A stretch of DNA of 37,344 nt, taken from positions 1-37,344 of the IMG/VR virus record IMGVR_UViG_3300006641_000078; one strand, written 5' to 3'. This DNA is from a virus. This document shows, piece after piece, positions 2,623 through 36,094 of the stretch (positions are counted from its first letter, which is position 1; each line of letters starts with the position of its first letter). The translations under genes were made by a program, and so were the position numbers. The notes under the pieces are model-generated. The model worked only from the letters and a program-made list of their open reading frames with translations. It was not told the DNA's origin and did no database searches.

Positions 2623-2713
2623 ACAAATCCTTTCCATGATCAACCAACGCCCAGCAGACAGCCACCCCATCCCGGGCGCTGGCGGCTGCTGCAACCGGAG
2701 ATTCCCACGATGA
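2552..2713 (+). CDS. Small hypothetical protein (53 aa), Cys-containing tail
   Basis: The product begins MRENPQLWAQYYQALAQGD, continues through a helical TSRARQILSMIN stretch and ends in GAGGCCNRRFPR. Its stop overlaps the next ATG (ATGA at 2710), the same coupling used throughout the window, which supports it as a real gene. Small proteins with a LWAQYYQAL-type start occur upstream of terminase in related phages as far as I recall, but I cannot name a function. It may be part of the packaging apparatus or a small virion protein. Confidence 0.55.
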   Translation: MRENPQLWAQYYQALAQGDTSRARQILSMINQRPADSHPIPGAGGCCNRRFPR

Positions 2714-2985
2714 AAAAGGCTGAAGACATCCTGAAGACAAAGGAGGCCCTCGCTGGTGACGCCCTCAAGGTGGCCACCGAGGCGCTGGGCTACATCGAGG
2801 ACGCACTGCCTGACGCCGGCATTCGCGACCTCATCAGCATCTTCAACTCCGCCATCAAGACCCACCGCGAACTGTGCGGTGACATCCTCGACCTGACCGC
2901 TCCCAAGGAGAGCGAGTCCGAGGTGAAGCTAGCGAAGGAGTACAACGGCAAGGTGGATGAGCTGCTGAAGCGCTTCTCCTCATGA
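2710..2985 (+). CDS. Hypothetical protein; positional candidate for small terminase subunit
   Basis: 91 aa, almost entirely helical (KKAEDILKTKEALAGDALK..., then IRDLISIFNSAIKTHREL), acidic and lysine-rich, ending in LLKRFSS. It lies immediately upstream of the large terminase with an ATGA overlap at 2982, the usual location of a small terminase subunit, and its size is at the low end for that role. No clear helix-turn-helix DNA-binding domain is visible. The assignment therefore rests on position alone, and it may instead be an unrelated small protein translated with terL. Confidence 0.6.
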   Translation: MKKAEDILKTKEALAGDALKVATEALGYIEDALPDAGIRDLISIFNSAIKTHRELCGDILDLTAPKESESEVKLAKEYNGKVDELLKRFSS

Positions 2986-4715
2986 CGCGTCCCATCATCA
3001 CGCACGTCTCCCAACTCGAGGAGCACTCGTCCTGGCGCCACTACCAGAGAGGGTTGAAAGAGCTCGTGGTGATGGAAGCTCCGAAGAGCATCATCCACGA
3101 ATACAAGCACAAAGCCGCTCGCGACTGCTTCCTGGCCTTCGCCGACATCATGAAGGGCGGCGACTTCCAGTGCGCCCCCTTCCACGAGATCATCGGTTCC
3201 GCCTTCGAAGATCTGGCGACACGCCGGCAGAGGCGCCTCATCATCTCGTGCCCTCCTCGTTCGGGCAAGTCGATGCTCGCCACAATGTTCGTGGCGTGGC
3301 TGCTCGGACGCGACCAGAAGACGCAGCACGTCATCGCCTCCTACGGTCAGCAACTCTCTGGCAAGTTCCACAGGGAGGTTATCACGATGATGAAGTCGCC
3401 TTCCTTCAAGAAGATCTTCCCAGAGTTCCTCGGTTTCAGCCCAGACTCGAAGTACGACATGCTCGGCGGCGGTTACATTCTCGCCACATCCGTGGGCGGG
3501 GTGCTGACCGGTTTCACAGCCGGAACATCTGACATGACATCACCTGGCGTGGGTGCTATGGTGATCGACGACCCGCTGAAGTCCTCCGACTCGAAAGCCG
3601 CTCTGGAGACGCTCGAGTCGTGGTGGGCTGAACAGGCGTCCACCCGTCGAACGAACAACTGGTGCCAGATGGTGATCGCCACCCGATTCCACGAGCGCGA
3701 CCTCCACGGTGTGCTGATGGAAGGCGACGGCCTCTATGACGCCGAAGAGAACCCATTCGGCTGGCGCTGGATCAACATCCAAGGCCTGTGTGAGGACGTG
3801 CCAAACGACCCTCTGGGTCGGCAGTTCGGTGAGTCACACTGGCCTGAGAACACCGCTTTCACTGTGGACATGCTCCAGTCGCAGAAGAAGGCGATGGGCT
3901 CATTCAAGTTCGCAGCTCTCTACCAGGGTGTTCCCAAGTCCGACGAGGGCCAGATCATTCGCCCCGCCTGGATCAAGCGCATCGACGCGGACAAGGTGCC
4001 AGAGTTCGATGTCACGTGGCTGGCGGTCGACTGCGCTTTCTCAGAGGAGCAGATGGCGGACGAGACCGCCGTGGCGGTGTGTGGCATCAACAAGGAGGAC
4101 CCGACGCACGTCTACCTGATCGAGATCATCACCGGACGCTGGGCGTTCCCGGATCTCATCGAGGCGGTCAAACACCTCTACAAGCTCTACAAGGCGCGAG
4201 TGCTCTGCATCGAGAAGGCGGCGTCTGGCCAGTCTCTCATCCAGGTGCTCAGGCGTGAGGCCAAGATCCCCATCGAGGAGTTCAAGCCCCTCAAGTCGAA
4301 GACCATCCGCCTCCAGGCCGTGAGTCCCCTCTACGAGCAGGGTCGTGTGACCTTCGTCGACGGGCCGTGGCTCGACCCGTTCGTGAAAGAACTGACGCAG
4401 TTCCCGTTCGTGGCACACGACGACCGGACTGACGCCATGGTTTGGGGGCTACACTACTTCCTGACCAGCATCGACACCGGCAACCGCATGCTGGCGGAAT
4501 CGATCATGAACCACAGGAAATTCCTGGGCTCCACACGGCGAGCCGACCTCGACGACTCGGCCGCATTCCCCACCTTCGGCCGTTCCGGTCGCAGGGCGGA
4601 GACTCCAGACGGTTGGAACTTCGGTGCAAGCGACTCGATCGACAGCACTAGCGAACGCCTCATCCGCGGCCGTCGTGGGCGTGGGCGTGGCGTGATGTGG
4701 GAAGGTGGCGGCTGA
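2982..4715 (+). CDS. terL: Terminase large subunit (ATPase and nuclease)
   Basis: 577 aa, full length for the family. It is the DNA-packaging motor: it hydrolyses ATP to drive DNA into the prohead and cuts the concatemer. The ATPase half carries Walker A PPRSGKS at residues 91-97, Walker B MVIDDP at 193-198 and an ATR motif (VIATRFHERD) near 231-240. The RNase H-like nuclease half has plausible metal ligands D350 (WLAVDCAF), E411 (LCIEKAASGQS) and D484 (AHDDRTDAM). The layout fits the Terminase_6 / psiM2-ORF9 type rather than T4 gp17. The C-terminus is Arg/Gly-rich (RGRRGRGRG) and may bind DNA. The start overlaps the upstream gene, and the stop is followed after one base by a GGGTAAGA element. 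Confidence 0.95.
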   Translation: MTRPIITHVSQLEEHSSWRHYQRGLKELVVMEAPKSIIHEYKHKAARDCFLAFADIMKGGDFQCAPFHEIIGSAFEDLATRRQRRLIISCPPRSGKSMLATMFVAWLLGRDQKTQHVIASYGQQLSGKFHREVITMMKSPSFKKIFPEFLGFSPDSKYDMLGGGYILATSVGGVLTGFTAGTSDMTSPGVGAMVIDDPLKSSDSKAALETLESWWAEQASTRRTNNWCQMVIATRFHERDLHGVLMEGDGLYDAEENPFGWRWINIQGLCEDVPNDPLGRQFGESHWPENTAFTVDMLQSQKKAMGSFKFAALYQGVPKSDEGQIIRPAWIKRIDADKVPEFDVTWLAVDCAFSEEQMADETAVAVCGINKEDPTHVYLIEIITGRWAFPDLIEAVKHLYKLYKARVLCIEKAASGQSLIQVLRREAKIPIEEFKPLKSKTIRLQAVSPLYEQGRVTFVDGPWLDPFVKELTQFPFVAHDDRTDAMVWGLHYFLTSIDTGNRMLAESIMNHRKFLGSTRRADLDDSAAFPTFGRSGRRAETPDGWNFGASDSIDSTSERLIRGRRGRGRGVMWEGGG

Positions 4716-4716
4716 C

Positions 4717-4724
4717 GGGTAAGA
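4717..4724 (+). promoter_or_regulatory. GGGTAAGA element 2 (putative late promoter)
   Basis: GGGTAAGA lies one base after the terL stop and 29 bases before the phoH start at 4754. It is followed by GTTCAACG, which shares a TCA within eight bases with several other copies of the element. It would separate the packaging block from the phoH block. Confidence 0.5.
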
Positions 4725-4753
4725 GTTCAACGACCGATTCTCGTCTATGAGAA

Positions 4754-5581
4754 ATGGACCCCCTCTACCGTACAGGAGGTGGTGAGTGGCTTAAACGGAC
4801 CCAAGTACTCTCGCTCCGCGAGATCCCCAAGAGTTTCACGACCCCTTATTGTATGGCAGTTAGCGCAAGAGAGAAGCGTAAGCTTCGTCGTCAAGTCGAG
4901 ATGATCGAGACGAAAATGGGTTACGAGTCACGTGGGATGGACATCCTCCCCGTGAAGTTCCAGACCCATCGTCAGGAAGAGTTCAACCACCTCATCAGAA
5001 CAAACACCGTCACCATCGCCCACGGTTCAGCTGGAACAGGCAAAACCCTGTTGGCACTGTGGACCGGCCTCAGCCTTGTCGCCAAAGGCGACTTTGACAA
5101 AGTCGTCTACATTCGCTCCGACGTCGGAGTGGAGTTTCAGCGAGGAAGAGGCGCCTTACCAGGCGACATGAGTGAGAAGATCGCTCCGCTCCTTGGACCC
5201 ATCCTGGACAACATCCCAGTGTGTTGCAGGTCCCACGGAGCCGCTAACTATCTGTTGGAAAAGGGCATCGTCGAGCCACTACTGCTCGAAGACATCCGAG
5301 GACGTTCCCTGAACAAGTCGTTCGTCATCGTCGACGAAGTTCAGAACTTCCTTCCGATCCATGTAAAGACTTGCCTCACCCGCGTGGGATCCGAGAGCAA
5401 GATGGTGTTGATCGGAGACACCAAACAAGCTGACCTTGACGTCTTCCGCCGTGAGAACGGTCTGGTTGACGCCATCTACAGGCTCCGCCACCTCCAGGAC
5501 GTGGGCATCCTGGAGTTCCACAAGGAGGACATTGTTCGCAACTCTGTCATCGCCCACATTCTAGACCGTTACGACGACTGA
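4754..5581 (+). CDS. phoH: PhoH-family ATPase
   Basis: 275 aa. PhoH proteins are P-loop ATPases widespread in bacteria and marine phages, linked to phosphate stress and RNA metabolism; the phage role is unsettled. Visible motifs are Walker A GSAGTGKT at residues 91-98, RGRSL at 182-186, Walker B VIVDEVQN at 191-198, the sensor-like GDTKQAD at 221-227 and a C-terminal DIVRNSV basic motif. The core spans about residues 65-270, the usual size. An in-frame ATG at 4853 (M34) is an alternative start that would drop an undistinguished 33-residue leader. The gene heads a block of four genes behind a GGGTAAGA element, and its stop overlaps the next ATG (TGATG). Confidence 0.93.
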   Translation: MDPLYRTGGGEWLKRTQVLSLREIPKSFTTPYCMAVSAREKRKLRRQVEMIETKMGYESRGMDILPVKFQTHRQEEFNHLIRTNTVTIAHGSAGTGKTLLALWTGLSLVAKGDFDKVVYIRSDVGVEFQRGRGALPGDMSEKIAPLLGPILDNIPVCCRSHGAANYLLEKGIVEPLLLEDIRGRSLNKSFVIVDEVQNFLPIHVKTCLTRVGSESKMVLIGDTKQADLDVFRRENGLVDAIYRLRHLQDVGILEFHKEDIVRNSVIAHILDRYDD

Positions 5582-6033
5582 TGAGATCATCGACACGTTG
5601 GAATCGATCGCCTTCCCACGAGCTCGACGCGATGGTGATGGCTCCGGCCCTCCCCAATCTGCGGCCGATGGGCGTGAGAAGCGCCGACAACAATCCCCCT
5701 CCGTCCAAAGCGAAGGTCGATACCGGCGTGTCAAACCACGCTGAGAATGAGGACATGGTGAGTGTTGATCTCAAGGATCAACAAGCCCTCGGCATCTGGA
5801 ACATGTTCAAGCTCGCCGAGGACCCCTCCCATGTCTCTCACCTCTACCGCCAGTACCGCGACTCGAAGAGTTGCTCGGTGCCGAAGAACCACCTGAGGCG
5901 CATGCGCGACGTCATGATCGCCGACATGAAGGAGAAGAACCAGGAGGCGAAGAACCCGAGGAGGCAGACACAGAGAGGTAAGAATGCCCCGACGTGGAAC
6001 GACCCCCAACTTCACATTCGCCGAGGAGCCTGA
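5581..6033 (+). CDS. Hypothetical protein (150 aa)
   Basis: The N-terminal ~55 residues are Pro/Ser-rich and probably disordered. The middle (GIWNMFKLAEDPSHVSHLYR and NHLRRMRDVMIADMKEKN) is predicted helical, and the C-terminus is very basic. The start at 5581 overlaps the phoH stop as TGATG; in-frame ATGs at 5632 and 5638 are alternatives. It overlaps the next ORF by about 50 bases if that gene starts at 5984. No family is recognised. A nucleic-acid-associated role would fit its basic tail, but that is speculation. Confidence 0.6.
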   Translation: MRSSTRWNRSPSHELDAMVMAPALPNLRPMGVRSADNNPPPSKAKVDTGVSNHAENEDMVSVDLKDQQALGIWNMFKLAEDPSHVSHLYRQYRDSKSCSVPKNHLRRMRDVMIADMKEKNQEAKNPRRQTQRGKNAPTWNDPQLHIRRGA

Positions 6034-6370
6034 CATGGCCGGAACACCTGACTACACGATCCCCTGTGCCAAGTCGCAAGTGCATCCCGACGGAGTGTGC
6101 CGCAAGAAGCTCCACAAGAACATCGGCGGTGGCTTCCACCGTCTCCACCAGCGCATGGCTGAGGAGGAGATGAAGGAGCAGATGGCGCAGCAGAAAGCTC
6201 AGTTCGACGAGCAGCGGCGCCAGATCGATCTCCAGGAGAAGATGATGGGCGTTGGCATGGGGACTCACCGTGTCATCAAGGACACTCGCAAAAACAAGCC
6301 TGCCCACACGCCATTCCTGCCAGGCGCAGGTGGCCAACCCAACAACACCAACAAAGGTAAGCAGAAATGA
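5984..6370 (+). CDS. Hypothetical protein with Cys pair and coiled coil
   Basis: 128 aa. A Cys pair (YTIPCAKSQVHPDGVCRKK) resembles the short Cys-pair modules of the 6.8-14 kb region. It is followed by a charged coiled coil (HQRMAEEEMKEQMAQQKAQF, then EQRRQIDLQEKM) and a Gly/Asn-rich tail. Two starts are plausible: ATG 5984, preceded by GAGAGG with five bases spacing, and ATG 6035 (M18), preceded by GAGGAG with six bases spacing and placed one base after the previous stop. The second avoids the overlap. Its stop forms ATGA with the next gene. No function is recognised; a minor virion protein is a guess. Confidence 0.6.
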   Translation: MPRRGTTPNFTFAEEPDMAGTPDYTIPCAKSQVHPDGVCRKKLHKNIGGGFHRLHQRMAEEEMKEQMAQQKAQFDEQRRQIDLQEKMMGVGMGTHRVIKDTRKNKPAHTPFLPGAGGQPNNTNKGKQK

Positions 6371-6759
6371 ACGGCTTCTTCCAACCCGAGGCCCTCGAAG
6401 CGCTCCAGAAAGCGTACGAGATGCAACTCACGCCCGATGAAATGGACATCGACCAGGTGACCGGTCTGCCCACAAACCAAGTCAGCAACACGTCGCCGTG
6501 GCACGGTAGCGTTGACCTCTGGAAATATCCGGACGGCAAGAACAAGCTCGAGACCTCCCCGATCATGTACCGGGTCGATGAGGATGCCGAGGATGAGATC
6601 GAAGAGGACTACAACGACGAGATCGTGGACGAGTATGGCGATGAGCCCTCTGGCGAGATCGAAGCCGACTACGACTCGGACGATGAGGAGGAGACCCTCA
6701 CTGAGGAGGAGATCGACGCTCTGATCGAGGAGCTTCTGACTTCTGACGAGGACGACTGA
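6367..6759 (+). CDS. Acidic small protein with shared N-terminal signature
   Basis: 130 aa. It opens with MNGFFQPEALEALQKAYEMQ, matching the signature seen at the starts of the genes at 8502, 8984 and 9808 (hydrophobic-Gly-x-Phe, a helix with Leu, then A-Y/H). The C-terminal half is extremely acidic (runs of D/E such as DSDDEEETLTEEE), like some phage internal or scaffold-associated proteins. There is no membrane segment. The gene ends the phoH block, and its TGA is directly followed by GGGTAAAA. Its role is unknown; a capsid-targeted internal protein is the hypothesis suggested by the shared N-terminus. Confidence 0.65.
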   Translation: MNGFFQPEALEALQKAYEMQLTPDEMDIDQVTGLPTNQVSNTSPWHGSVDLWKYPDGKNKLETSPIMYRVDEDAEDEIEEDYNDEIVDEYGDEPSGEIEADYDSDDEEETLTEEEIDALIEELLTSDEDD

Positions 6760-6767
6760 GGGTAAAA
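6760..6767 (+). promoter_or_regulatory. GGGTAAAA element 3 (putative late promoter)
   Basis: GGGTAAAA directly abuts the TGA stop of the preceding gene and lies 21 bases before ATG 6789. It is followed by CACTTCAG. The 21-base leader has no clear Shine-Dalgarno sequence. The site heads the block of small charged proteins. Confidence 0.5.
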
Positions 6768-6788
6768 CACTTCAGTTTCCAGCGTCAA

Positions 6789-7496
6789 ATGGGCGACGTA
6801 GTTCTGCCAGGTGTCGGGGGCATGATCAATGCCTCCAACTCCCAATCGGGTCCTGGCCTCAAGAAAGAGAACCGCGAGCGTCGCAAGTGGGGCGCTGGTG
6901 TCAACGAAGAGGGCTTCATGACCATCGGCAAGACCGATCACAACGAGATGCGCCTCGCCAATCACAAAGAGCGGCGTGAGAAGCGCGTGAATCTCATCAA
7001 CCGTGACATGAATGAGTACGCCGACGGCGGTCAGGCCATGTCCGAAATCGTGGGTCGCAAGAACCTGCGCGCGGCCCAGTACCGCGAACTGAAGAGCAGC
7101 GAGTACAAGTTCTCCGAGCAGGAGGACGAGTACATGGCCATGGGCTCGTTCATGCCCACCTTCGACGAGGGATGCGGCTGTGGCAAGAGCTGCAACTGCG
7201 CGTCGTGCCGCGCCAAGAAGAAGGCTGACAGCGACTACCGCGAGTGGAGCACCGAGAAGCGCAAGGAGCTCTCGAAGGGTGAGGTGAAGGGCAAGTTCGC
7301 TGGTCCAGACCAGAGCTTCCCAATCTCGAATGCCACCGACGTGAAGGCCGCGTGGTCCTCCGCCGGTCGTGCCAAGAACCCCCGCGCTGTGATGAAGAAC
7401 ATCATTCGCATCGCAGAAGAAATGGGCCTCGAATCGGCTCTGCCCGAGAGCGTCAAGCAACGTCTTGAAAACGGAGAGTCGGGACTGCCAGGCTGA
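6789..7496 (+). CDS. Structural-type protein with Cys cluster and DUF6582-like C-terminus
   Basis: 235 aa. Residues 1-115 are charged and helical. A compact Cys cluster follows, with Cys at 129, 131, 135, 137 and 140 (EGCGCGKSCNCASCRAKKK), a likely zinc-binding knuckle. The C-terminal ~65 residues (KFAGPDQSFPISNATDVKAA, then SAGRAKNP and SALPESV) match my memory of the small domain now called DUF6582, often appended to phage prohead proteases and other head proteins. The gene is the first of its block, and its stop overlaps the next start (TGATG). Its role in the head is inferred from the appended domain only. Confidence 0.7.
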   Translation: MGDVVLPGVGGMINASNSQSGPGLKKENRERRKWGAGVNEEGFMTIGKTDHNEMRLANHKERREKRVNLINRDMNEYADGGQAMSEIVGRKNLRAAQYRELKSSEYKFSEQEDEYMAMGSFMPTFDEGCGCGKSCNCASCRAKKKADSDYREWSTEKRKELSKGEVKGKFAGPDQSFPISNATDVKAAWSSAGRAKNPRAVMKNIIRIAEEMGLESALPESVKQRLENGESGLPG

Positions 7497-7792
7497 TGGA
7501 TCCAACGGTTTTGGGCTCCATCATTGGAGTTGTAGGTTCTCTCGTTATCGGCGGCATCAGCTGGCTGGGGAAAACAAACAAAGACTCAATGACCCAGATC
7601 ACCGCCTCCGTCACCAATATCGAAGGCCAAGTCACGGCACTCCGCATCGAGCTCCCTACCAAATACGTCACGAAGGAGGAGATGCTCCGGCACATCAGCT
7701 CCGAAGAGGGCTGGCAACGCCACATCGACGCCCAACTGCGTGAAATTCGCGAAGAAATCTCCTCAGTCCGAGACTGGACACACCGCTCATGA
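7496..7792 (+). CDS. Small membrane protein with coiled coil; holin/lysis candidate
   Basis: 98 aa. One strong hydrophobic segment covers residues ~5-25 (VLGSIIGVVGSLVIGGISWL). It is followed by a polar helical part (QITASVTNIEGQVTALRIEL, REIREEISSVRDW) likely to form a coiled coil. It carries no lysine or arginine before the membrane segment and has a long soluble C-terminal tail. Single-pass proteins of this size can be holins, spanin-like lysis proteins or membrane-anchored adsorption factors, and nothing here decides between them. No endolysin is seen next to it. It is coupled at both ends (TGATG at 7496, ATGA at 7789). Confidence 0.65.
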   Translation: MDPTVLGSIIGVVGSLVIGGISWLGKTNKDSMTQITASVTNIEGQVTALRIELPTKYVTKEEMLRHISSEEGWQRHIDAQLREIREEISSVRDWTHRS

Positions 7793-8499
7793 ACCTCGAA
7801 GACTACGACTTTGACCGCCTTCTGGGCCTTGGCTACACCGAAAAGGCCACAGGCGAGCTGAAGGAAGCCTGCTGGAAAGGCTACACAGCGGTGGGCACCA
7901 AGAAGAAAGGTGGTCGCACAGTCCCCAACTGCGTGCCGATCAAGAAGTCGGACCACGCTGAGGAGATGAAGCGGAAACCGTTCATCGCTGGGCCGAGCGC
8001 AGGATCCCCTTCCTTCGCTGAAGGAGAGGATGAGACTTTGGACTTCACTCGTTGTGAGCGTCCTAATGGCACCGCTTATGGCACCGGAGGCAAGTGCCGC
8101 AAGGGAACAGAATCCAAAGCTCCCGTTGCCCCCGCTCCCCCTAAGTCGGCGATGACCAAAAAGGATCCGGTAGCCGAAGTCCTGAAATCGCAGGAAGAGC
8201 TGAAGAAGTTTAACAAAGAGGAGAATAAGCGTCTAGCGAAGGATAAGCCAGAGTTGGCCATTGAGTCGCTGGCGGTCAAGATGCGGAAACTCTCTGAGGA
8301 ATATAAGCGGCTCGCGGGTGATCCCTCTCAGGCTTCTCGGAGAAAGGAGATCATGGATAAGACGGCTGAACTCGCCAAGAAACAGCAGGAACTGATCAAT
8401 AAGAGGAACGCGTCTGTTCAGGGGCCGCAGCGGAAGGCTGATACATCACCTCTAGCCAATATGCGCAGGGCCAGTGCGGCTGCCCGAGCGGAGGATTGA
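7789..8499 (+). CDS. Protein with two phage Cys-pair motifs and coiled coil
   Basis: 236 aa. Residues 28-48 carry CWKGYTAVGTKKKGG ending in PNCVP, a short motif I recall from many phage structural proteins. Residues 89-103 carry a second pair (RCERPNGTAYGTGGKCRKG), with a preceding SFAEGE, related to segments in the 9808 and 10583 proteins. The rest is a lysine- and glutamate-rich coiled coil (residues ~120-210). In the 3' half the third codon positions look less GC-rich than in neighbours, perhaps a different origin. Start by ATGA overlap. The exact function is unknown; a virion protein is likely. Confidence 0.7.
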   Translation: MNLEDYDFDRLLGLGYTEKATGELKEACWKGYTAVGTKKKGGRTVPNCVPIKKSDHAEEMKRKPFIAGPSAGSPSFAEGEDETLDFTRCERPNGTAYGTGGKCRKGTESKAPVAPAPPKSAMTKKDPVAEVLKSQEELKKFNKEENKRLAKDKPELAIESLAVKMRKLSEEYKRLAGDPSQASRRKEIMDKTAELAKKQQELINKRNASVQGPQRKADTSPLANMRRASAAARAED

Positions 8500-8501
8500 C
8501 C

Positions 8502-8984
8502 ATGTTCGGCTCCTTCCCAAGTGAACTGCTTGAACAGTTCAAGCAAGAATACGCAGAGCGCTCAGGTAAGCCCTGTGGCGGCTCCCATATTCCGGCGGCC
8601 CACACCTGCCATGTCGGTGGTGAGAGTGGCTACAAGGACGTCACCGAAGCCATTCGTCAGGACGCAGGCGCAGCGTTCGACGACGCCCACGAGAAAATCT
8701 TCCGGGATCGTTACGCGAAGGCCAAAACGGCCAAGGAGCTCGGCACCATCCACAGGAAGGCCATCAAGGATCTCGACAACGACGATCTGGACGCCAAGGA
8801 GGGAGTGCTGAACGCCATGAAGAAGGCGATGGCATCACACCTCGAGGTGAACATGGCGACGGGCCAGGGCGCGAAACGCGCAGCTGAGCTGGCTGCGATG
8901 AGCCCTGAGGAGCGCCGTCGTGCCGAAACCAAAGACGCCATCGAACGCGGCATCAAGAACAAAGTCGTGAGCGGGAGACGCTGA
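8502..8984 (+). CDS. Small protein with shared MFGSF signature and GKPCG Cys motif
   Basis: 160 aa. I chose ATG 8502 rather than the TTG six bases upstream because it begins exactly with the signature MFGSFPSELLEQFKQEYAER, shared with the next gene. Residues 23-36 (GKPCGGSHIPAAHTC, Cys-x10-Cys) match the N-terminus of the 630-aa kinase-like protein at 11905. The remainder is helical and charged (KTAKELGTIHRKAIKDLD, AAMSPEERRRAETKD). The gene sits two bases after the previous stop and overlaps the next start (TGATG). It is probably a virion-internal or capsid-associated protein; that is inference from the shared modules. Confidence 0.75.
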   Translation: MFGSFPSELLEQFKQEYAERSGKPCGGSHIPAAHTCHVGGESGYKDVTEAIRQDAGAAFDDAHEKIFRDRYAKAKTAKELGTIHRKAIKDLDNDDLDAKEGVLNAMKKAMASHLEVNMATGQGAKRAAELAAMSPEERRRAETKDAIERGIKNKVVSGRR

Positions 8985-9352
8985 TGTTCGGTTCGTTCCC
9001 AGAAGATCTCCTCGCTGAATTCAAAGAGGCATACGAGGAACGCCGCCAGGCGATGGCCATCGGCTATCCTCAGCAGTCCTACACCGACAAGGCCGAGATG
9101 CCGTGCAACAAGCCGAAGGCGGAGACACACAATGGGAAATCGCATGTGGTGAAGGCTTGCTACGACGGCGCTCCTGAAGGTGGGAAACTCATCCGCTTCG
9201 GCCAAGCAGGCGCCTCCACTGCTGGTAAACCCAAAGAGGGTGAGTCGGATCGCATGAAAGCGAAGCGTGCTTCCTTTAAGGCCCGTCACGGCCGAAACAT
9301 CGCGAAAGGCCCAAGTTCAGCGGCCTGGTGGTCTGACAAGATTAAGTGGTGA
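8984..9352 (+). CDS. Small protein with MFGSF signature and SAAWW-KW terminal domain
   Basis: 122 aa. It starts MFGSFPEDLLAEFKEAYEER, nearly identical in pattern to the preceding gene. Residues ~51-122 form a conserved-looking basic domain: KSHVVKACYDG, LIRFGQAGAS, KRASFKARHGRNIAKG and the terminal SAAWWSDKIKW. I recall this domain as recurrent in phage proteins, usually without known function; the alternation of basic and aromatic residues suggests nucleic-acid or protein binding. The last codons contain the -35 element of the promoter for the inserted HNH gene. Coupled to the previous gene by TGATG. Confidence 0.75.
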   Translation: MFGSFPEDLLAEFKEAYEERRQAMAIGYPQQSYTDKAEMPCNKPKAETHNGKSHVVKACYDGAPEGGKLIRFGQAGASTAGKPKEGESDRMKAKRASFKARHGRNIAKGPSSAAWWSDKIKW

Positions 9353-9361
9353 TGCTATACT
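9333..9361 (+). promoter_or_regulatory. Sigma70-like promoter for the HNH gene
   Basis: CTGACA (9333-9338), a 17-base spacer and TATACT (9356-9361) make a near-consensus -35/-10 pair with one mismatch in each hexamer. Predicted initiation near 9368 gives a ~17-base leader to ATG 9385. It overlaps the end of the upstream coding region and is the only such pair I noticed at a gene start. It would let the HNH gene be transcribed by host RNA polymerase independently of the surrounding late genes. Confidence 0.6.
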
Positions 9362-9384
9362 AGCGCCAGCACAAACAAACTCAA

Positions 9385-9807
9385 ATGGCTTACGGAGACG
9401 GCTTCAAGAAACACCCTGAACGCTACGCAGAACGAGCATGTCCGAAGTGCTCAGGGGTAAGGTTAGTTCGCAGAGACCAGCCTCTCGATAAACTCTGTAA
9501 GTCTTGCTCACAAAGAGGAAAGACGTGTGTTCAAAAGAAGCCCTCACCACGGCACTCTCCAGAGACACGGGGGACTTGGAACAGTTATTGGAGAGCAAAA
9601 CGACGCTGCGAAGAAAGTCCCTACTACACCGAAGTCGAGTTCAGATTTGACGATTTCGATGAGTGGTTCACTGAACTTGGTCCTCGTCCCGAGGGTTGCT
9701 CAGTTGATCGCATTGACAACCTAGGGCACTACGAGCCCGGCAATGTTCGCTGGGCTACACACAAAGAACAGTGTAACAATCGCCGCCGTCGAAGAACGGC
9801 TCTCTAA
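9385..9807 (+). CDS. HNH homing endonuclease with zinc-ribbon N-terminus
   Basis: 140 aa. Residues 19-41 carry paired CxxC motifs (C19, C22, C38, C41), a probable DNA-binding zinc ribbon. Residues 105-135 show the HNH signature of phage free-standing endonucleases: SVDRIDNLGHYEPGN followed by VRWATHKEQCNNRR, preceded by the usual GTWNSYWRAKRRC helix. Such enzymes cut unoccupied alleles and spread by repair. Unlike its neighbours it is not start/stop coupled upstream: it follows a 32-base gap and has its own sigma70-like promoter. This, with lower GC, marks it as an intruder in the structural block. The next gene begins directly after its stop. Confidence 0.9.
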   Translation: MAYGDGFKKHPERYAERACPKCSGVRLVRRDQPLDKLCKSCSQRGKTCVQKKPSPRHSPETRGTWNSYWRAKRRCEESPYYTEVEFRFDDFDEWFTELGPRPEGCSVDRIDNLGHYEPGNVRWATHKEQCNNRRRRRTAL

Positions 9808-10575
9808 ATGTTAGGACATTTTTCCCCTGAAGCCCTCCGCACCTTCGCCGAGGCCCACAATTTAGACACTGGCAATCAGGACTTCTCTGAAGGAGTGTTC
9901 GATTTCAAAGTGTGTCAGAAGCCCGATGGCAAGTATTTTGGTATCAAAGATTCGGCGAAATGCACCCCACCAAACAAAGAGGCTAAGCAAAGGCCTGATA
10001 CGGGTTTCTTCAACACTCAAGCTGGTCGCGGGATAAACTATGACACCGCGAAACAGCAAGGAGATGTTAAAACCTATTGGGAGAAGATTGGTTTCAAACC
10101 TCCCTCACCCCCCACAGCCGCAGACAAGGAGGCTGAAAGGCGTAGAGCTGTACAGAGGGATAAGGAGCTGGAGGCCTTGGCCCGAGCTGAGGATCGAGCT
10201 GCGGATCCAAACGAGAGCGTACTGTATCGCGGGCGATACATGCCGCGCAAGATGAAGTGGGCCATAGAGGACACTGACGCACGCCTAGGAAAGAGAATGT
10301 CCCAGGATGATGTCAACAAGATGGTTGACAACTCTTACCGGCCAGGCCAGAATCAGCCGACTGCAGCAGTGAACCAAGCAGCTCCTAAGCCTAAATACTC
10401 TGACGCTGACTCCTACACCAAAGGCCGAGATTTGTACAGGATCTCCCGCAATGCGGGGAATAGCCACCTGATGGCTAAGAACAAGGTGCGGACTGCCTTG
10501 GAGGCAGTTGGTATGAACCCAGACGCACTTGCGCCTGAAGACTGGCAACAACTTCGCCAAATGTACGGAGACTAA
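9808..10575 (+). CDS. Protein with shared N-terminal signature and Cys pair
   Basis: 255 aa. It starts MLGHFSPEALRTFAEAHNLD, a diverged copy of the MFGSF signature. Residues ~26-52 (DFSEGVFDFKVCQKPDGKYF, then C52) repeat the F-[AS]-[ED]-G linker plus Cys-pair arrangement found in the 7789 and 10583 proteins. The rest is charged and helical, with low-complexity Pro/Ala stretches. Third codon positions look less GC-rich than in neighbouring genes, as in the adjoining HNH gene, hinting at joint acquisition or relaxed selection. It starts immediately after the HNH stop. Likely a virion protein of unknown function. Confidence 0.65.
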   Translation: MLGHFSPEALRTFAEAHNLDTGNQDFSEGVFDFKVCQKPDGKYFGIKDSAKCTPPNKEAKQRPDTGFFNTQAGRGINYDTAKQQGDVKTYWEKIGFKPPSPPTAADKEAERRRAVQRDKELEALARAEDRAADPNESVLYRGRYMPRKMKWAIEDTDARLGKRMSQDDVNKMVDNSYRPGQNQPTAAVNQAAPKPKYSDADSYTKGRDLYRISRNAGNSHLMAKNKVRTALEAVGMNPDALAPEDWQQLRQMYGD

Positions 10576-10582
10576 CCCTATC

Positions 10583-11185
10583 ATGAACCCTTTTAACCTC
10601 CCATCTGTCGACCACCTCGTTGAGGGTGTCCATTACCGTCTCGTCGACTGGTCCTTCGCTGAGGGCCACGAACGCGACCGTGGTCTCCAGACCAACATGC
10701 CATCCCGTGGCATGGTCTCCTCCTTCGCTGATGGCGAGTGTCCCGAAGGCGAGAAGATGGTGTTTGGAATGTGCAGGAAGCCCGGAGAGAAGCAGGGCGA
10801 GAAGGAGTTTGACTCCTCCAAGAAGACCAAACAGGAGGAGGAAGGCGAAGCCGAAGCCAAGAAGCAAGGCTCTGACGTCAAGAACAACAAGATGATCAAG
10901 GATGTCAAGTCGGGCAAGAAGCTCGGCTGGGCGATCAAGGACGGCAAGCCGGTCCTCGTGGAGTGGGGATCTGTCGCTGGGGAGAAAAAGGTCGGCGCCA
11001 AGAAGCCGACGGAACCACCCAAGCCTCCCGCAGGCGCATCCCGCTCTGGCGTGACTGACGCCACTCGTTCCGGTCAGCGTGCTGGCAACGACGCAGCTCG
11101 TGCCGGTCAGGTGAACACCGCGGGTCTCGCCGCCCAGGATGAGAACCGCCGCAACATCGAAGCCCAGGCGCGGTCCGCAGGGTAA
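10583..11185 (+). CDS. Lysine-rich protein with FADGE/Cys-pair motif
   Basis: 200 aa. I place the start at ATG 10583, seven bases after the previous stop; a TTG 54 bases upstream would overlap that gene. The N-terminal part (MNPFNLPSVDHLVEGVHY) is only loosely like the shared signature. SSFADGECPEGEKMVFGMC gives a Cys53-x10-Cys64 pair in the same setting as in the 7789 and 9808 proteins. The remainder is Lys/Glu- and Ala/Gly-rich and probably disordered (KKTKQEEEGEAEAKK, PTEPPKPPAG). Its TAA stop lies inside the GGGTAAAA element. Probably virion-associated. Confidence 0.65.
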   Translation: MNPFNLPSVDHLVEGVHYRLVDWSFAEGHERDRGLQTNMPSRGMVSSFADGECPEGEKMVFGMCRKPGEKQGEKEFDSSKKTKQEEEGEAEAKKQGSDVKNNKMIKDVKSGKKLGWAIKDGKPVLVEWGSVAGEKKVGAKKPTEPPKPPAGASRSGVTDATRSGQRAGNDAARAGQVNTAGLAAQDENRRNIEAQARSAG

Positions 11186-11187
11186 AA
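11180..11187 (+). promoter_or_regulatory. GGGTAAAA element 4 (putative late promoter)
   Basis: The octamer contains the TAA stop codon of the preceding gene (11183-11185), and ATG 11213 follows after 25 bases. It is followed by CTCGTTCAAAAG. It heads the block that contains the kinase-like gene. Confidence 0.5.
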
Positions 11188-11212
11188 CTCGTTCAAAAGT
11201 CCTCCCAGAATA

Positions 11213-11905
11213 ATGCGCAAAGACTCCATTGCCGAAGGAGCCTACCAGAAGGCTCTGGAGATGTACCAGTTTAGCGAGCGTGGCTTCCACGGCTCAGGCG
11301 TTGACGCCGACGATGTACCCGTGCTCGCTCCTCAGGTGAGCAAGCTCAAGAAGGAGGACGCTCCTTGGAATCCTGAGTCGGCCTTCTACGGCAACAAGCC
11401 CCGTGGGAGTGGTCCTCCGTCATTCAACTACACGGAGGAGACCGGCACAGGCGAGTACAATGCCATGGAAGCCGAACTCGTCCGCCTCATGCAGATCCAG
11501 GACAACCTCGGCGGTCAACTCCGCCGTGCTCGCCAACTCGGGGCTTTCCAGGAGGAGCACCGCATCGTGCAGGAGCGCAACGACATCATGAAGGCGATCT
11601 CCGCTGTGGAGGCCCAGATGATGGTGCTCGACAACGGCCGCTTCCGCCGTGGCATGAACGATGGCATGATGTACGAGTCGCAGGACCGTGACGAGTTCAG
11701 CGAGTACGTCAGCGCCATCGAGGAGAACGACGAGAAGATCGCTCGCCTCGAAGCCGCCCTGCTCGAGTTCGCTGAGAAGATGAAGGGCAAGGACATCAAG
11801 AGCACCGGTGGAGACGCCGCTGCCGACCCCGGTCAGTCGTACGACACGGCTGATGACGAGGAAGACGACGAGGACATGGACGAAGAGGAACTCAGAGAAG
11901 GCTGA
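11213..11905 (+). CDS. Coiled-coil protein with acidic tail; scaffold-like
   Basis: 230 aa. The N-terminus (MRKDSIAEGAYQKALEMYQF) is a helix loosely like the shared signature. Residues ~85-195 are a long heptad-rich coiled coil (AMEAELVRLMQIQDNLGG, IAAL-type repeats around EENDEKIARLEAALLEF). The last ~25 residues are nearly all D/E. Acidic coiled-coil proteins of this size are common as scaffolds or internal head proteins, but no specific family is recognised. It is first in its block and overlaps the next start (TGATG at 11905). Confidence 0.65.
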   Translation: MRKDSIAEGAYQKALEMYQFSERGFHGSGVDADDVPVLAPQVSKLKKEDAPWNPESAFYGNKPRGSGPPSFNYTEETGTGEYNAMEAELVRLMQIQDNLGGQLRRARQLGAFQEEHRIVQERNDIMKAISAVEAQMMVLDNGRFRRGMNDGMMYESQDRDEFSEYVSAIEENDEKIARLEAALLEFAEKMKGKDIKSTGGDAAADPGQSYDTADDEEDDEDMDEEELREG

Positions 11906-13797
11906 TGGCAGGGAAGGGGAAGCCGTGCGGCGCGTCATTCATCGCCGCTGACAAACAGTGTAAAATAGGTCTCTCCGTCCAGCTCAACGCCAAGGCGCTC
12001 AAGAACGCCGACATCGGGAAGCTGCGGGAGTGGGCTGGCAAAGCCCCGTTCAAGTACCAGCGCGACAAGATCGAGGCCGAGATCGCCAAGCGTCAGGGTG
12101 ACGCTGGCATCGTCAAGATTCCCTCTGGGAAGACGAACCGTGAGCTCGCCGCAGAGAAGAAGAAGCTCGACGACGAGCAGCAGAAGCTCCAGAAGGAGCT
12201 CGACCGACTGGTCGCCATCCGCGACGCTCAGGCGAAGGGGAAACCCTCGCAGAAGATCAACGCTGGCTTCCTGAAGAAGGCCACCACGCAGAAGCTCGAG
12301 GAGTACATGCTTCGGGCTCCGTACCAGTACCAGCGTGAAGCCATCAAGGCCGAGCTGGATCGACGAGGTGCCGGAGGGGGCGGGGCCAAGCCAGGGGTTA
12401 AAGCGACCGCTGACCTGAAGAAGGAGTGGCAGGCGATCCAAGATGATAAGATGAAGAGGATCGACCGGGGAGAGTACGAAGCGGCCGTAAAGCTGGCTGG
12501 GCAGCAGAGAGCTATCAAGGCCGAACTCGATAGGAGAGAAGCAGGCGGTTCCGCTAGAGAGGTCAAGATCGACAAGATCCTTCAGCTCGCGCCTCCCCCT
12601 CCGAAAAAGGAACCCGGCGTCAACCGCCCGTTTGCCAGTCAGAACGACGACCAGCTCAAGGGCAAGATGGAAGCCGCGTGGGCTCTCGGAAAGGATGCCG
12701 ATTACAGGGCCATGCGCGCTGAGTACCAGCGTCGCATCGCAAATGACGAGACGAAGAAGCGGATCCTGGGCATCGACGAGGACATCCGCCGCGCCAAAGA
12801 GGCGAGGCAGCAGTATGTCAAGGCGGGCAACGCCGACCGTGTGAAGAAGGTCGACGACATGATCAAGGGCCTGGAGGCTGACAAACTCCGCGTGGGCAAC
12901 TCGGCCGTCCCCCAGGGCATGGGCAAGTACGAGAAGGATCGCCTCCAAGCAATTGACAAGCGCGTCGAAGACAACATGACCAAGAAGCTTGGTGACGGCT
13001 ACGATTGGCGTGACTCCGTCAGCAATGCCGACTCCAAGGTGCTGGGTGCGGGCGCCTACGGAACCGCCGTGCGTGACTCCGCCAGGAACGTGGTCAAGCG
13101 TGGCGCCATCGGTGAGAACGAGGGTGACATCCTCAAACGCGTCGGTGAGCTGGACCTCGGTCCGAAGCTCATCGCTGCCGAACTCAACGGTCGTGGTCCG
13201 ATGGCCGGAACAAAAGACGGCCGCGTGGCCATGACGCTCGTCCCAGGAAGCCCCATCGGAAACAAGAAGGGTCTCGAGCAGTCCTACTGGCAGGCTCGTG
13301 CCGCCCTCCACCGTGCGGGCATCGCCCACAACGACATGCACATCGAGAATGTGATGGTCGACAAGCAGAGGAAGGGTCGCTTTGTGGACATGGGCCTCGC
13401 CCAGGACAACCCTAAGGCCGCTCTCGCTGAGGCCATGGGCATGTTCGACCGGATGCCAGCCGGAGCCGTGAGAAACGGTGGCGAGGGTGACTGGCAGGTG
13501 AAGCGGTGGAAGAACATCGGTGGTCGTGCTATTCGTACTTTTGAGTATGGGAAGAATGCCAACGACCTCGAAAGGCTCCAGGCTGAGAGGGACTTTCCGA
13601 CCGTGGCGAGGGTTGTCCAGAACAAGGAAGCTGCTATAACGAAGTTGAAGAGCTATGGCCTGGATGACCAGGACGTGGCCAACATCATGACCCACGGCAT
13701 TCGCAAGAGTGAAGCCTCTTTCGAGAGGGGGTCGATGGCAAAGCTTACAAACGAACAGGCGCTCAGCGTCATCAACACCCTCTACGAAGGCATCTGA
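11905..13797 (+). CDS. Helical-repeat protein with protein-kinase-like domain
   Basis: 630 aa. Residues 5-19 hold the GKPCG...C motif (Cys8-x10-Cys19) shared with the 8502 protein. Residues ~25-340 contain diverged helical repeats: KLREWAGKAPFKYQRDKIEA and KLEEYMLRAPYQYQREAIKA are two clear copies. Residues ~378-500 look like a kinase fold: Gly-rich loop GAGAYGTA (381-388), VVK with Lys398, Glu404/406, hinge-like MTLVPG (443-448), catalytic loop HNDMHIENVMVD (475-486; Asp477, Asn482) and FVDMGLA (Asp495 in the DFG position). All core residues of RIO/LPS-kinase-like enzymes appear present. A C-terminal ~100 residues are uncharacterised. It may be packaged in the virion and act on host or virion proteins; this is inferred. 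Confidence 0.8.
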   Translation: MAGKGKPCGASFIAADKQCKIGLSVQLNAKALKNADIGKLREWAGKAPFKYQRDKIEAEIAKRQGDAGIVKIPSGKTNRELAAEKKKLDDEQQKLQKELDRLVAIRDAQAKGKPSQKINAGFLKKATTQKLEEYMLRAPYQYQREAIKAELDRRGAGGGGAKPGVKATADLKKEWQAIQDDKMKRIDRGEYEAAVKLAGQQRAIKAELDRREAGGSAREVKIDKILQLAPPPPKKEPGVNRPFASQNDDQLKGKMEAAWALGKDADYRAMRAEYQRRIANDETKKRILGIDEDIRRAKEARQQYVKAGNADRVKKVDDMIKGLEADKLRVGNSAVPQGMGKYEKDRLQAIDKRVEDNMTKKLGDGYDWRDSVSNADSKVLGAGAYGTAVRDSARNVVKRGAIGENEGDILKRVGELDLGPKLIAAELNGRGPMAGTKDGRVAMTLVPGSPIGNKKGLEQSYWQARAALHRAGIAHNDMHIENVMVDKQRKGRFVDMGLAQDNPKAALAEAMGMFDRMPAGAVRNGGEGDWQVKRWKNIGGRAIRTFEYGKNANDLERLQAERDFPTVARVVQNKEAAITKLKSYGLDDQDVANIMTHGIRKSEASFERGSMAKLTNEQALSVINTLYEGI

Positions 13798-13961
13798 TGG
13801 AAACCGAAGACGACAAGAAGTACATCGCCCTGATGGACAAGTACAAGAGGGCGCGCATGAAGGACGGCCAGGCGGCCATGAAGTACCTCGAAGCAGCGAT
13901 GGCTCTGAGGGAGATGGGCAAAGTCAGCGAGGATGCTGTCCTCGGTGGAGCCTACATGTGA
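13797..13961 (+). CDS. Small helical protein (54 aa)
   Basis: METEDDKKYIALMDKYKRAR, then a helical MKYLEAAMALREMG and the end DAVLGGAYM. The start overlaps the kinase-like gene's stop (TGATG) and the stop overlaps the next gene's GTG (GTGA), so it is embedded in a translationally coupled chain. No domain is recognised. It may be a small capsid or tail accessory protein. Support comes from coupling and codon use. Confidence 0.6.
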   Translation: METEDDKKYIALMDKYKRARMKDGQAAMKYLEAAMALREMGKVSEDAVLGGAYM

Positions 13962-34054: not shown

Positions 34055-34780
34055 ATGGCTATTGTAGGAATGATCCCCAGCGACGGATCCGTCGTGATCG
34101 ACGGCATTGCCGCATTTGGGGTGGACTTTACAGGTATCGACCCCAGCATTCATGCTGTACAATGGAATGGTGTGGAAGGTTTTGTAGAGCCTGTCTACGA
34201 TCCATTCTCTGGAATCAAACCACCCAACGTACCAATCACATCGTTTGCTCCTTTCCAAACCTACTACAACCAAGCGCAGGCGATCATCTACGCTCAGCAG
34301 AACCCTGCATACTACTACTCCACCATTGACGACAACTACTACCAGGGTGTGGTCTACGACATTGGCGCTCAGATCGTCATCTTCACACCTAACCCAGTTC
34401 AGCCGCCATACACCACCATCACTCCGCCACCGTCTGTCGATCTGGAGTATCAGACCTTGCAGTGGACCGGCTCCACTTGGGTTGTCGCCTCTTTTACCTA
34501 CACTGAGAGCCTATCACAAGCCCAGAGCCAGCTGATTTCCCTCGTGCAGGAGAGCGGCGCTCAGGCTGTGGACAATGAGGCGCGGATCTATTCTGTGATC
34601 CAACTCCTGGGCTCCGCAAGTCCCGAGGACCTGCCTACAGCCGACTACTTGGGCTTGACCCTCGGTGGCTATCAGACCTATATCGACGGGGAAGTCACTT
34701 CGAAGACCAACGAGATCAACGCTGCTACTAGCCCCGCCGACCTCTACGACTTCAATCCAAACATCAATCCAGTCCCCTAA
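34055..34780 (+). CDS. Tail-fibre accessory/assembly-type protein
   Basis: 241 aa. The N-terminal half is beta-rich and aromatic (IHAVQWNGVEGFVEPVYDP, QTYYNQAQAIIYAQ). A Pro-rich hinge (PNPVQPPYTTITPPPSV) follows. The C-terminal ~90 residues are helical (LSQAQSQLISLVQESGAQAV) and end with GGYQTYIDGEVTSKTNEINA, the general form of DUF4376-like C-termini in phage fibre-associated proteins. I regard it as a candidate fibre assembly factor or minor tail protein. TAATG overlap with the first oxygenase gene. Confidence 0.65.
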   Translation: MAIVGMIPSDGSVVIDGIAAFGVDFTGIDPSIHAVQWNGVEGFVEPVYDPFSGIKPPNVPITSFAPFQTYYNQAQAIIYAQQNPAYYYSTIDDNYYQGVVYDIGAQIVIFTPNPVQPPYTTITPPPSVDLEYQTLQWTGSTWVVASFTYTESLSQAQSQLISLVQESGAQAVDNEARIYSVIQLLGSASPEDLPTADYLGLTLGGYQTYIDGEVTSKTNEINAATSPADLYDFNPNINPVP

Positions 34781-35514
34781 TGCTCAGGCAAACCGCTTTC
34801 ATTCAAAACGACACTATCAGAGAAGCTTCCAGAGTCAAGTCCCTTAGTGATGTGAGCGTAGAGGAGTTCACCCACGGGGACCACTGGAAAGTGTGGGTTC
34901 TTCACGACGTGTGGGAGAACCTGGACCTGTTCGATGAGGTCACTCAGCAGTGCCCCATATACGAGTCGAGTCCGGATCTCCACGGGGTCAACCCCTTTCT
35001 CAAGCAAGCCGTCATCTTTGACATGCTCCGTCCAATGGAGAATCTCCTGGCAGAGATGAACGAAAAGTATCTAGAGAGCGAGATCACTCCTAGGGCGGCG
35101 CGGCCGTGGGCGAACATTATGGTCGTTGATCCAGAGAAGAGGTTCCCGTTCCCATGCATGTTCCCTCACACGGATCAACTCTATACTAGTCGCAACAACT
35201 TGGTGGCAAACATCTGGCTTCACGAGGAGTCGGAGGGACAAGGAACTGCCTTCTGGAGGGTGCGCGAGAATGACTCGGCCGTAGACTGCCCAGAATTCCA
35301 AGCCCTCTGCAGCCGAGCACTGAGCCACGCCAACAAAAACTTCCCCTTCTTCAACTACGAAAGCGATGAGTATCTGGACAAAGTTCTGGTCACCCCAGCA
35401 AAACGAGGAACCGTCACAGTCTACACCGGTCATCAAATACACAGCCCCGTTTGTTCTACTGAGCCTGGACGAGTCAGACGCTCTTGGGTCGCCACCCTTG
35501 GTGAGCCTTTCTGA
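34780..35514 (+). CDS. 2-oxoglutarate/Fe(II)-type oxygenase, divergent
   Basis: 244 aa. The C-terminal half reads as a double-stranded beta-helix: H130-x-D132 (FPHTDQ), a core strand NLVANIWLHEE, TAFW, then VTVYTGHQIHSPVCSTEPGR with H218 or H221 as distal ligand and R231 or R233 as the likely 2-oxoglutarate anchor. Fe(II)/2OG enzymes hydroxylate protein or small-molecule substrates using O2. The N-terminal ~100 residues are helical and unassigned. It is the most divergent of three such genes in a row. Coupled to the previous gene by TAATG, and it overlaps the next gene if that starts at GTG 35501. Confidence 0.72.
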   Translation: MLRQTAFIQNDTIREASRVKSLSDVSVEEFTHGDHWKVWVLHDVWENLDLFDEVTQQCPIYESSPDLHGVNPFLKQAVIFDMLRPMENLLAEMNEKYLESEITPRAARPWANIMVVDPEKRFPFPCMFPHTDQLYTSRNNLVANIWLHEESEGQGTAFWRVRENDSAVDCPEFQALCSRALSHANKNFPFFNYESDEYLDKVLVTPAKRGTVTVYTGHQIHSPVCSTEPGRVRRSWVATLGEPF

Positions 35515-36094
35515 TCCCTACATCAAGGAGATACCCAACGCTCTAAGTGAGGAGTTCTGTGAGGGCCTCATCAAGAAATTCGAAGAAGATGATAGAAAGC
35601 ATCCAGGGTTAACGTTCAGCGGCGTGACCGGGATGAAAGTGTCCATGGACCTCTTCATCAGCGACATCGAAGACTATGCCGAAGAGGATGGCACGTTGTA
35701 CCGGTCCCTCTCAGAGCACACAGATGGATACGTCGCTGGCCTGCCCAACGGTCTGGGTCCGGAGATGCTTAACGTTCAGGACACGGGCTACAATATCCAG
35801 AGGACACGGGTCGGTGAGGGTTACGTGTGGCACGACGACTCTCACGTGACATCCGACGGAGACTCCCGCATTATCACGTTCATCTGGTACCTCAATGACG
35901 TTCACGAAGGGGGCGAGACTGAGTTCTCTTGCGGGGTGAGGGTAAAGCCCGAGACCGGGAAACTGCTCCTCTTCCCCGCAACGTGGAGCTACAAACACCG
36001 AGGTTGCAGACCGATCTCAAACGATAAGTACATCGTCACCGGCTGGTTCTACACCCAGAAGCTCATCACCACTCATGACACGGTCCTTCGCTGA
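35501..36094 (+). CDS. 2OG-Fe(II) oxygenase (prolyl-4-hydroxylase-like)
   Basis: 197 aa from the GTG at 35501, which gives a typical start (SLSDPYIKEIPNALSEEFCE) and a 14-base overlap. The in-frame ATG at 35366 would add 45 residues read out of frame from the previous gene and is less likely. The ligand set is complete: H111-x-D113 (YVWHDDSHVT), GGETEF at 137-142, distal H166 (SYKHRG) and K176 (KYIVTGW) in the 2-oxoglutarate-binding position. This arrangement is that of P4H-like 2OG oxygenases (PF13640 type) common in cyanophages. The substrate is unknown; collagen-like fibre protein is one candidate. Confidence 0.85.
   Translation: MSLSDPYIKEIPNALSEEFCEGLIKKFEEDDRKHPGLTFSGVTGMKVSMDLFISDIEDYAEEDGTLYRSLSEHTDGYVAGLPNGLGPEMLNVQDTGYNIQRTRVGEGYVWHDDSHVTSDGDSRIITFIWYLNDVHEGGETEFSCGVRVKPETGKLLLFPATWSYKHRGCRPISNDKYIVTGWFYTQKLITTHDTVLR

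Follow-up and report, generated by a model that had tools for sequence, protein, structure and literature searches.

A Shared N-Terminal Tag on Otherwise Unrelated Proteins as a Candidate Capsid-Targeting Signal of Synechococcus Phage S-CBWM1-like Viruses

Shared N-Terminal Tag

The stretch of DNA analyzed here (hereafter, the window) is a 37,344-base virus fragment from IMG/VR (record IMGVR_UViG_3300006641_000078), whose terminase shares 54% identity with its counterpart in Synechococcus phage S-CBWM1. Four proteins of the window, encoded by the genes at 6367, 8502, 8984 and 9808, begin with a common tag with the consensus M-x-G-x-F-[SP]-x-[ED]-x-L. With a probability of about two in three, the tag serves S-CBWM1-like phages as a signal of the capsid-targeting type, by which the tagged proteins would be loaded into the prohead, cut after an F-x-E site and ejected together with the DNA.

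All four starts reported in the initial annotation were found in place. On the plus strand, they open an acidic protein (6367–6759; tag MNGFFQPEALEALQKAYEMQ, 6367–6426), a protein at 8502–8984 (tag MFGSFPSELLEQFKQEYAER, 8502–8561), a protein at 8984–9352 with a body of the phrog_7595 family (tag MFGSFPEDLLAEFKEAYEER, 8984–9043) and a protein at 9808–10575 (tag MLGHFSPEALRTFAEAHNLD, 9808–9867). The start of gene 8502 is the ATG at 8502, and the TTG at 8496 is merely an upstream alternative. The resemblance of the four starts is far above the background: in an N-terminus-anchored comparison with BLOSUM62, the six pairs of tags scored 68, 36, 25, 23, 23 and 17, while 225 other pairs had a mean of −17.8 (standard deviation 10.2, maximum 22).

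A search of related phage genomes, proposed in the initial annotation, was performed using a hidden Markov model (HMM) of the tag with 20 columns. Matches at exact N-termini were found in the window (34.7, 36.2 and 35.3 bits for 6367, 8502 and 9808, respectively), in about 20 relatives and in S-CBWM1, with scores of 22–41 bits against approximately 10 bits for the best chance match, and no matches away from N-termini were found in the ten whole records searched. The ortholog of 6367 is gp108 of S-CBWM1, and orthologs also occur in many relatives. The tags of the four window genes are identical at only 24–41 of 60 bases, and the ratio of nonsynonymous to synonymous polymorphism (pN/pS) among orthologous tags was 0.20 in the 8984 family and 0.17 in both the 6367 and 9808 families. 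The tag is therefore under purifying selection at the level of the peptide, not of the DNA.

Two separate low-confidence models predicted a helix at residues 7–20. In the model of the tag with its two-cysteine module (pLDDT 67), a flexible linker and a short hairpin follow the predicted helix; the model of 8502 (pLDDT 64) combines the same helix with low confidence over residues 15–42 and a helical body. The start had been described as amphipathic and about 20 residues long. A helix is indeed predicted, but the amphipathicity of the four window tags was not significant (hydrophobic-moment shuffle, P 0.14–0.61).

The four tagged proteins did not make up the whole set, and variants on 10583 and probably on 11213 had been missed. 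The protein at 10583–11185 begins with MNPFNLPSVDHLVEGVHYRL (10583–10642, plus strand), and we read this as a variant tag because its orthologs show the tag form, beginning with MLGRFDIPSVDHL in L174 and with MTGDFSVPNVDHL in L155. The protein at 11213–11905 probably carries another variant (MRKDSIAEGAYQKALEMYQF, 11213–11272, plus strand, then FSE at 11270–11278); its relatives start with MRKDxFTxEAL, leading into F-x-E and a two-cysteine module.

Separability of the Tag and the Protein Bodies

The phrog_7595 profile (positions 9–96 of 96) matches residues 33–122 of the 8984 protein with an E-value of 4e-28. Most members of this family that were examined have a short untagged start: the tag was absent in 73 of 90 homologs, a sample partly chosen by the tag and not an estimate of abundance, and their starts were different and mostly short. 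The body of 8502 is located in the window behind its own tag and a two-cysteine module of the KPCG type. Other N-termini precede it elsewhere, namely a start of the type of window protein 7789 in L006, L008 and L085, and combinations of the tag, F-x-E and another two-cysteine module (DFTRC) in L156, L157 and L162, with the same arrangement and a longer insert in L154. Bodies long enough to compare were present in 44 of 48 tagged proteins and formed 23 BLASTP clusters, although remote homology between some of these is possible.

The starts are thus not homologous whole domains, the outcome that had been named as one that would count against a tag, and the earlier statement that the rest of each protein is different agrees with the recurrence of the tag on unrelated bodies. 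Judging from these comparisons, the tag is a separable module. It is hardly credible that the starts go back to one ancestral protein, as in paralogs, or resemble each other by chance, with no targeting role. Such an origin is favored by the adjacency of 8502 and 8984, whose tags are identical at 41 of 60 bases, but the 23 body clusters, the purifying selection on the tags and the scores far above background argue against it.

F-x-E Site and Two-Cysteine Modules

An alignment of 39 proteins revealed a layout common in the S-CBWM1 lineage, in which the tag leads into F-[AS]-E, with G or E as the next residue, and then into a module containing two cysteines, DFTRCVRPNGTAYGTGGKCRKG. Neither the F-x-E site nor this module had been noted in the initial annotation. 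This layout holds for most relatives found through the module. The full arrangement in the window belongs to 9808, which can be aligned with the 38 other proteins across the tag, site and module; the F-x-E site DFSEG (9883–9891), a proposed protease site, lies between the tag and the module DFKVCQKPDGKYFGIKDSAKC (9901–9963). The variant-tagged protein 10583 contains the F-x-E site SFAEG (10655–10663) and a two-cysteine stretch, CPEGEKMVFGMC (10739–10774), that is conserved in relatives. All these features are on the plus strand.

F[AS]E was found in 25 of 47 non-redundant tag–body junctions compared with 1.5 ± 1.2 by shuffling, although the shuffles ignore sequence kinship, with near-identical segments removed. 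The wider pattern [FYL]xE was found in 58/69 junctions, most commonly as FSE or FAE and then G or E. Across the genome of S-CBWM1 alone, F-x-E sites were few, and on their own they failed to single out the tagged genes.

A second module type, GKPCGxSFIxxxKxC, is located directly behind the tag in 8502 (GKPCGGSHIPAAHTC, 8565–8609, plus strand) and at the start of the kinase-like protein 11905. Within S-CBWM1, gp174 contains this module internally, and for the kinases gp113, gp161 and gp162 the module coincides with the annotated start or overlaps and closely precedes it. Some relatives' kinases carry the DFTRC module instead of KPCG, a swap of the N-terminus (L005, L008 and L121). Because a kinase can carry either module, the two types appear to be interchangeable. 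As a separate observation, the annotated start codons of gp113 (L086, 30414–30473) and gp161 (L088, 28848–28880) seem to be too far downstream, each being overlapped or closely preceded by an in-frame KPCG module.

In IMG/VR, 63 loci with the DFTRC module were found. In cellular genomes, a pattern scan covering one genome each of 84,980 prokaryote species returned 6 stretches, none of which was a relative. When named phages were searched with short two-cysteine sequences, S-CBWM1 was the only hit apart from weak ones with E-values of 3–4. A 61-position profile had as many as 15 matches in a single contig of 277 kb, many of which cover the module more than the tag. Contig 3300033604_000031 (L148/L149, 40,250 bases) has mirror-image pairs of matches at both ends (for example, 8862 on the minus strand and 31252 on the plus strand); this points to a large inverted duplication, which may have arisen in assembly, and counts from this contig are doubled.

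Link to the Head Maturation Protease and Scaffold

The head maturation protease of the lineage was attributed to phrog_976 (E-value 1e-67) and is fused to a long scaffold-like region. This protease was found in S-CBWM1, as part of gp170, and in 11/20 tagged contigs, and a major capsid protein (MCP) of the S-CBWM1 type in 14/20, the near full-length copies being 64–69% identical. In eight of nine protease fusions, the scaffold part contains 5–10 F-x-E sites, whereas shuffling gives about 1.2. One such site is present in the scaffold of the ninth, whose locus ends early, and the protease halves of the nine fusions have none. Two further fusions contain 4 and 7 sites in all. The recurrent scaffold sites are PFSFSE/E just behind the protease domain, GGVFAE/E, and LEFSE/GE near the end (the slash follows the Glu of F-x-E). 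It is known that prohead proteases cut after Glu within a three-residue motif, namely L/I-X-E in T4, S/A-X-E in phiKZ and A-X-E in SPN3US (PMC9026906, PMC7411985). By analogy, F-x-E would be a further specificity in the style of these Glu-cutting enzymes. That the tag–body junctions and the scaffold share this motif speaks more strongly for head targeting than any other observation, albeit indirectly.

Two related proposals were considered and set aside. Cleavage of the MCP at F-x-E was not adopted, as gp175 of S-CBWM1 is without a long N-terminal propeptide bearing F-x-E. An origin of the tag from the tag-like stretch in the protease N-terminus (RTFSPEDLQQVVDTYDP) is not claimed, since this stretch resembles an ordinary helix N-cap. 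The MCP gene of several relatives was found in separated exon-like pieces (L208–L219; contigs G019, G020, G021, G026, G027 and G031), which suggests that introns or insertions interrupt this gene.

A number of observations weigh against head targeting with cleavage, in addition to the kinship ignored by the shuffles. The protease and the MCP were not found in the window, a fragment that excludes that region; the tagged bodies of the window have no assigned function; kinases carry a module without any tag; and no virion proteomics for the S-CBWM1 lineage was found in the literature. The tags of 6367, 8502 and 8984, three of the four in the window, and that of S-CBWM1 gp39 have no F-x-E behind them, and F-S-E is present within many tags themselves. 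F-x-E could therefore be a docking motif instead of a cut site. According to this alternative, the tag and F-x-E are docking motifs for a partner in the virion or scaffold, and the cargo, held by repeated F-x-E contacts, is packaged intact with no proteolysis. In its favor are the missing junction sites and the presence of F-S-E in both the tag and the junction. However, the position at the junction, the preference for G or E after Glu and the scaffold site LEFSE/GE resemble the sites of Glu-specific prohead proteases, and the first scaffold F-x-E lies just behind the protease domain. We consider packaging without cleavage to be rather unlikely.

Cargo Proteins

Enzymes of the effector type were found among the tagged bodies of relatives. 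ADP-ribosyltransferase domains were identified in L130 (PF03496, E-value 3e-12, with Alt-like PHROGs, phrog_26651) and L145 (PF03496, E-value 9e-7), both above the Pfam cut-off; this catalytic domain was found in these relatives only and in no window protein. In addition, S-CBWM1 gp39 is an NMN adenylyltransferase with the tag and module, and the tagged body of L165 is a kinase. The L124 body best matched the C-terminal portion of a family of minor head proteins (positions 1121–1320 of 1440, E-value 2e-13), and no MuF or portal domain was found in the window cluster proteins or the tagged representatives. Published surveys have concluded that ADP-ribosyltransferases and related enzymes are often head-packaged in phages (PMC9503650, PMC5512222).

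In the window, an activity is suggested only for the protein-kinase-like protein at 11905–13797 (plus strand), which has no tag and carries the KPCG module at its extreme N-terminus (11926–11961); its match to Pkinase (E-value 2e-4) is below the curated Pfam cut-off. The proposal of a host-takeover effector set gains from the tagged effector-type enzymes of relatives, the Alt-like ADP-ribosyltransferase included. That the tagged genes are scattered across whole genomes, and not gathered in one cluster, had been missed.

Genome Context

The gene order of S-CBWM1 is the same as that of the window: terminase, PhoH, small unknown genes, RIO-like kinase, and baseplate and fibre genes. The S-CBWM1 genome is 139 kb long, and related contigs reach 277 kb. 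The genes at 2710–13961, from upstream of the terminase to behind the kinase, are all on the plus strand and overlap or are separated by about 40 bases or less, and so the tag cluster is probably expressed together with the terminase. Promoter- and terminator-like sites in this region were no more frequent than in shuffles.

The position of the cluster between the terminase/PhoH and the baseplate/fibre genes, in both the window and S-CBWM1, would also suit a tag that directs proteins to the tail or baseplate, as cargo of the tube lumen or spike, and gp165 of S-CBWM1 is located just upstream of the tail sheath gene. Nevertheless, the tagged gp39 lies at 26.7 kb, far from the tail genes, F-x-E is common to the tagged proteins and the protease-scaffold, and one body type is otherwise known in minor head proteins. 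A tail destination is quite improbable. A similarly improbable alternative is that the tag is an address within the infected cell, such as a host compartment or replication site, for proteins that are synthesized and act once the cell has been infected. Both NMN adenylyltransferase and kinases could plausibly serve as ordinary infection-time enzymes, and N-terminal helices act as encapsulation peptides for bacterial microcompartments. The co-linearity of the genes with the terminase argues against such an address, which also leaves the F-x-E sites of the scaffold unexplained.

Upstream of 8502, a protein at 7789–8499 (plus strand) has a different N-terminus, MNLEDYDFDRLLGLGY. It contains the motif CWKGYTAVGTKKKGGRTVPNC (7870–7932), the F-x-E site SFAEG (8014–8022) and the module DFTRCERPNGTAYGTGGKCRKG (about 8041–8109), all on the plus strand. 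The motif, which includes CWKGY, was found in 362 phage records, mostly of cyanophages, in unknown proteins among the matches seen; in S-CREM1 it lies within a 783-aa protein adjoining a NadR-like gene. A free-standing HNH endonuclease gene (9385–9807) is located between the tagged genes 8984 and 9808; the close relatives examined lack it there.

Elsewhere in the window, adjacent genes at 34780–36644 resemble 2-oxoglutarate/iron oxygenases or their relatives (PF13640, E-value 5e-16, for 35366; DUF6445, E-value 5e-6, for 34780). The fibre-like proteins 24500, 25599, 26366 and 30180 have their own common N-terminal signature, FPxNPYDGQLYPxPxxPGSxQYxWN, and 14152 and 18726 have another, LKRSSIxNKRPxPxxLxPGELALNTNxxxPGLFF. 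Both signatures are probably virion attachment starts.

Discussion

The following scheme is proposed for the capsid-targeting-type signal. The tag helix would dock on the scaffold core and recruit unrelated proteins into the prohead, which, by analogy with T4, would assemble around the core and cargo. As the motif statistics suggest, the phrog_976 protease would then cut the scaffold, and the cargo behind the tag, after F-x-E. The mature cargo would begin with the two-cysteine module and stay with the DNA, and the module may contact DNA, the portal or the conduit. Finally, the cargo would leave with the DNA into the host and act there, as its type suggests. The proteins 6367, 8502 and 8984 might retain the tag or be cut elsewhere. 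To a wider proposal we give an even chance: that the helical tag and the two-cysteine module, with an F-x-E cleavage site between them, form a two-part N-terminal code, by which S-CBWM1-like phages would address a large and quickly exchanged set of effectors, as many as about 15 in a genome. Such a head-loading system would be independent of T4 and similar in logic to the signals of secretion systems.

In T4, a capsid targeting sequence (CTS) is present on IPI–III and Alt and is removed by gp21. The system described here resembles it in the short N-terminal sequence common to unrelated bodies, the Glu-ending three-residue motif behind the tag, the ADP-ribosyltransferase among the cargo types of relatives and the head maturation protease (phrog_976) in the genomes of the lineage. 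In contrast to T4, the junction is mostly F-[AS]-E, with few Y or L in the first position, and not L/I-x-E; the tagged proteins have an added two-cysteine module; the protease is fused to its scaffold; and up to 15 module-bearing places were found in one 277-kb contig. The tag was already thought to differ in sequence from that of T4, and accordingly a profile search of the T4 record yielded nothing at E ≤ 1. Because of this and of the different motif, the tag system would work like T4 capsid targeting without being a member of it. What stands of the suggested T4-like tag is a separable tag, its unrelated bodies and a junction F-x-E common to the protease scaffold; its amphipathic character was not significant in the window.

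Ejection proteins of phiKZ and SPN3US, whose propeptides are cut at S/A-x-E or A-x-E, share Glu-directed maturation of head proteins and multiple cargo with the present system. However, the propeptides of SPN3US can be long (111–130 residues), whereas dozens of different proteins here have in common a helix about 20 residues long. MuF-fused and polyvalent effectors (PMC5512222, PMC9503650) are similar in their head-packaged ADP-ribosyltransferase and other host-modifying domains, as well as in the resemblance of the L124 body to a minor-head-protein C-terminal domain, but the effectors here are separate proteins with a common tag, not fused to a head structural domain. No earlier description of the tag system was found in the open-access papers searched.

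If the proposal is true, the tag would be a sequence label for candidate head-packaged, ejected proteins in poorly understood viruses related to a Synechococcus phage, and dozens of unannotated effectors would be predictable from sequence alone. It would provide a second, independent example of capsid targeting for testing cargo choice, and one virion proteome of cultured S-CBWM1 would be enough to tell which proteins of a phage are delivered into the host along with its DNA. It would also suggest a way of directing proteins into a cyanophage head.

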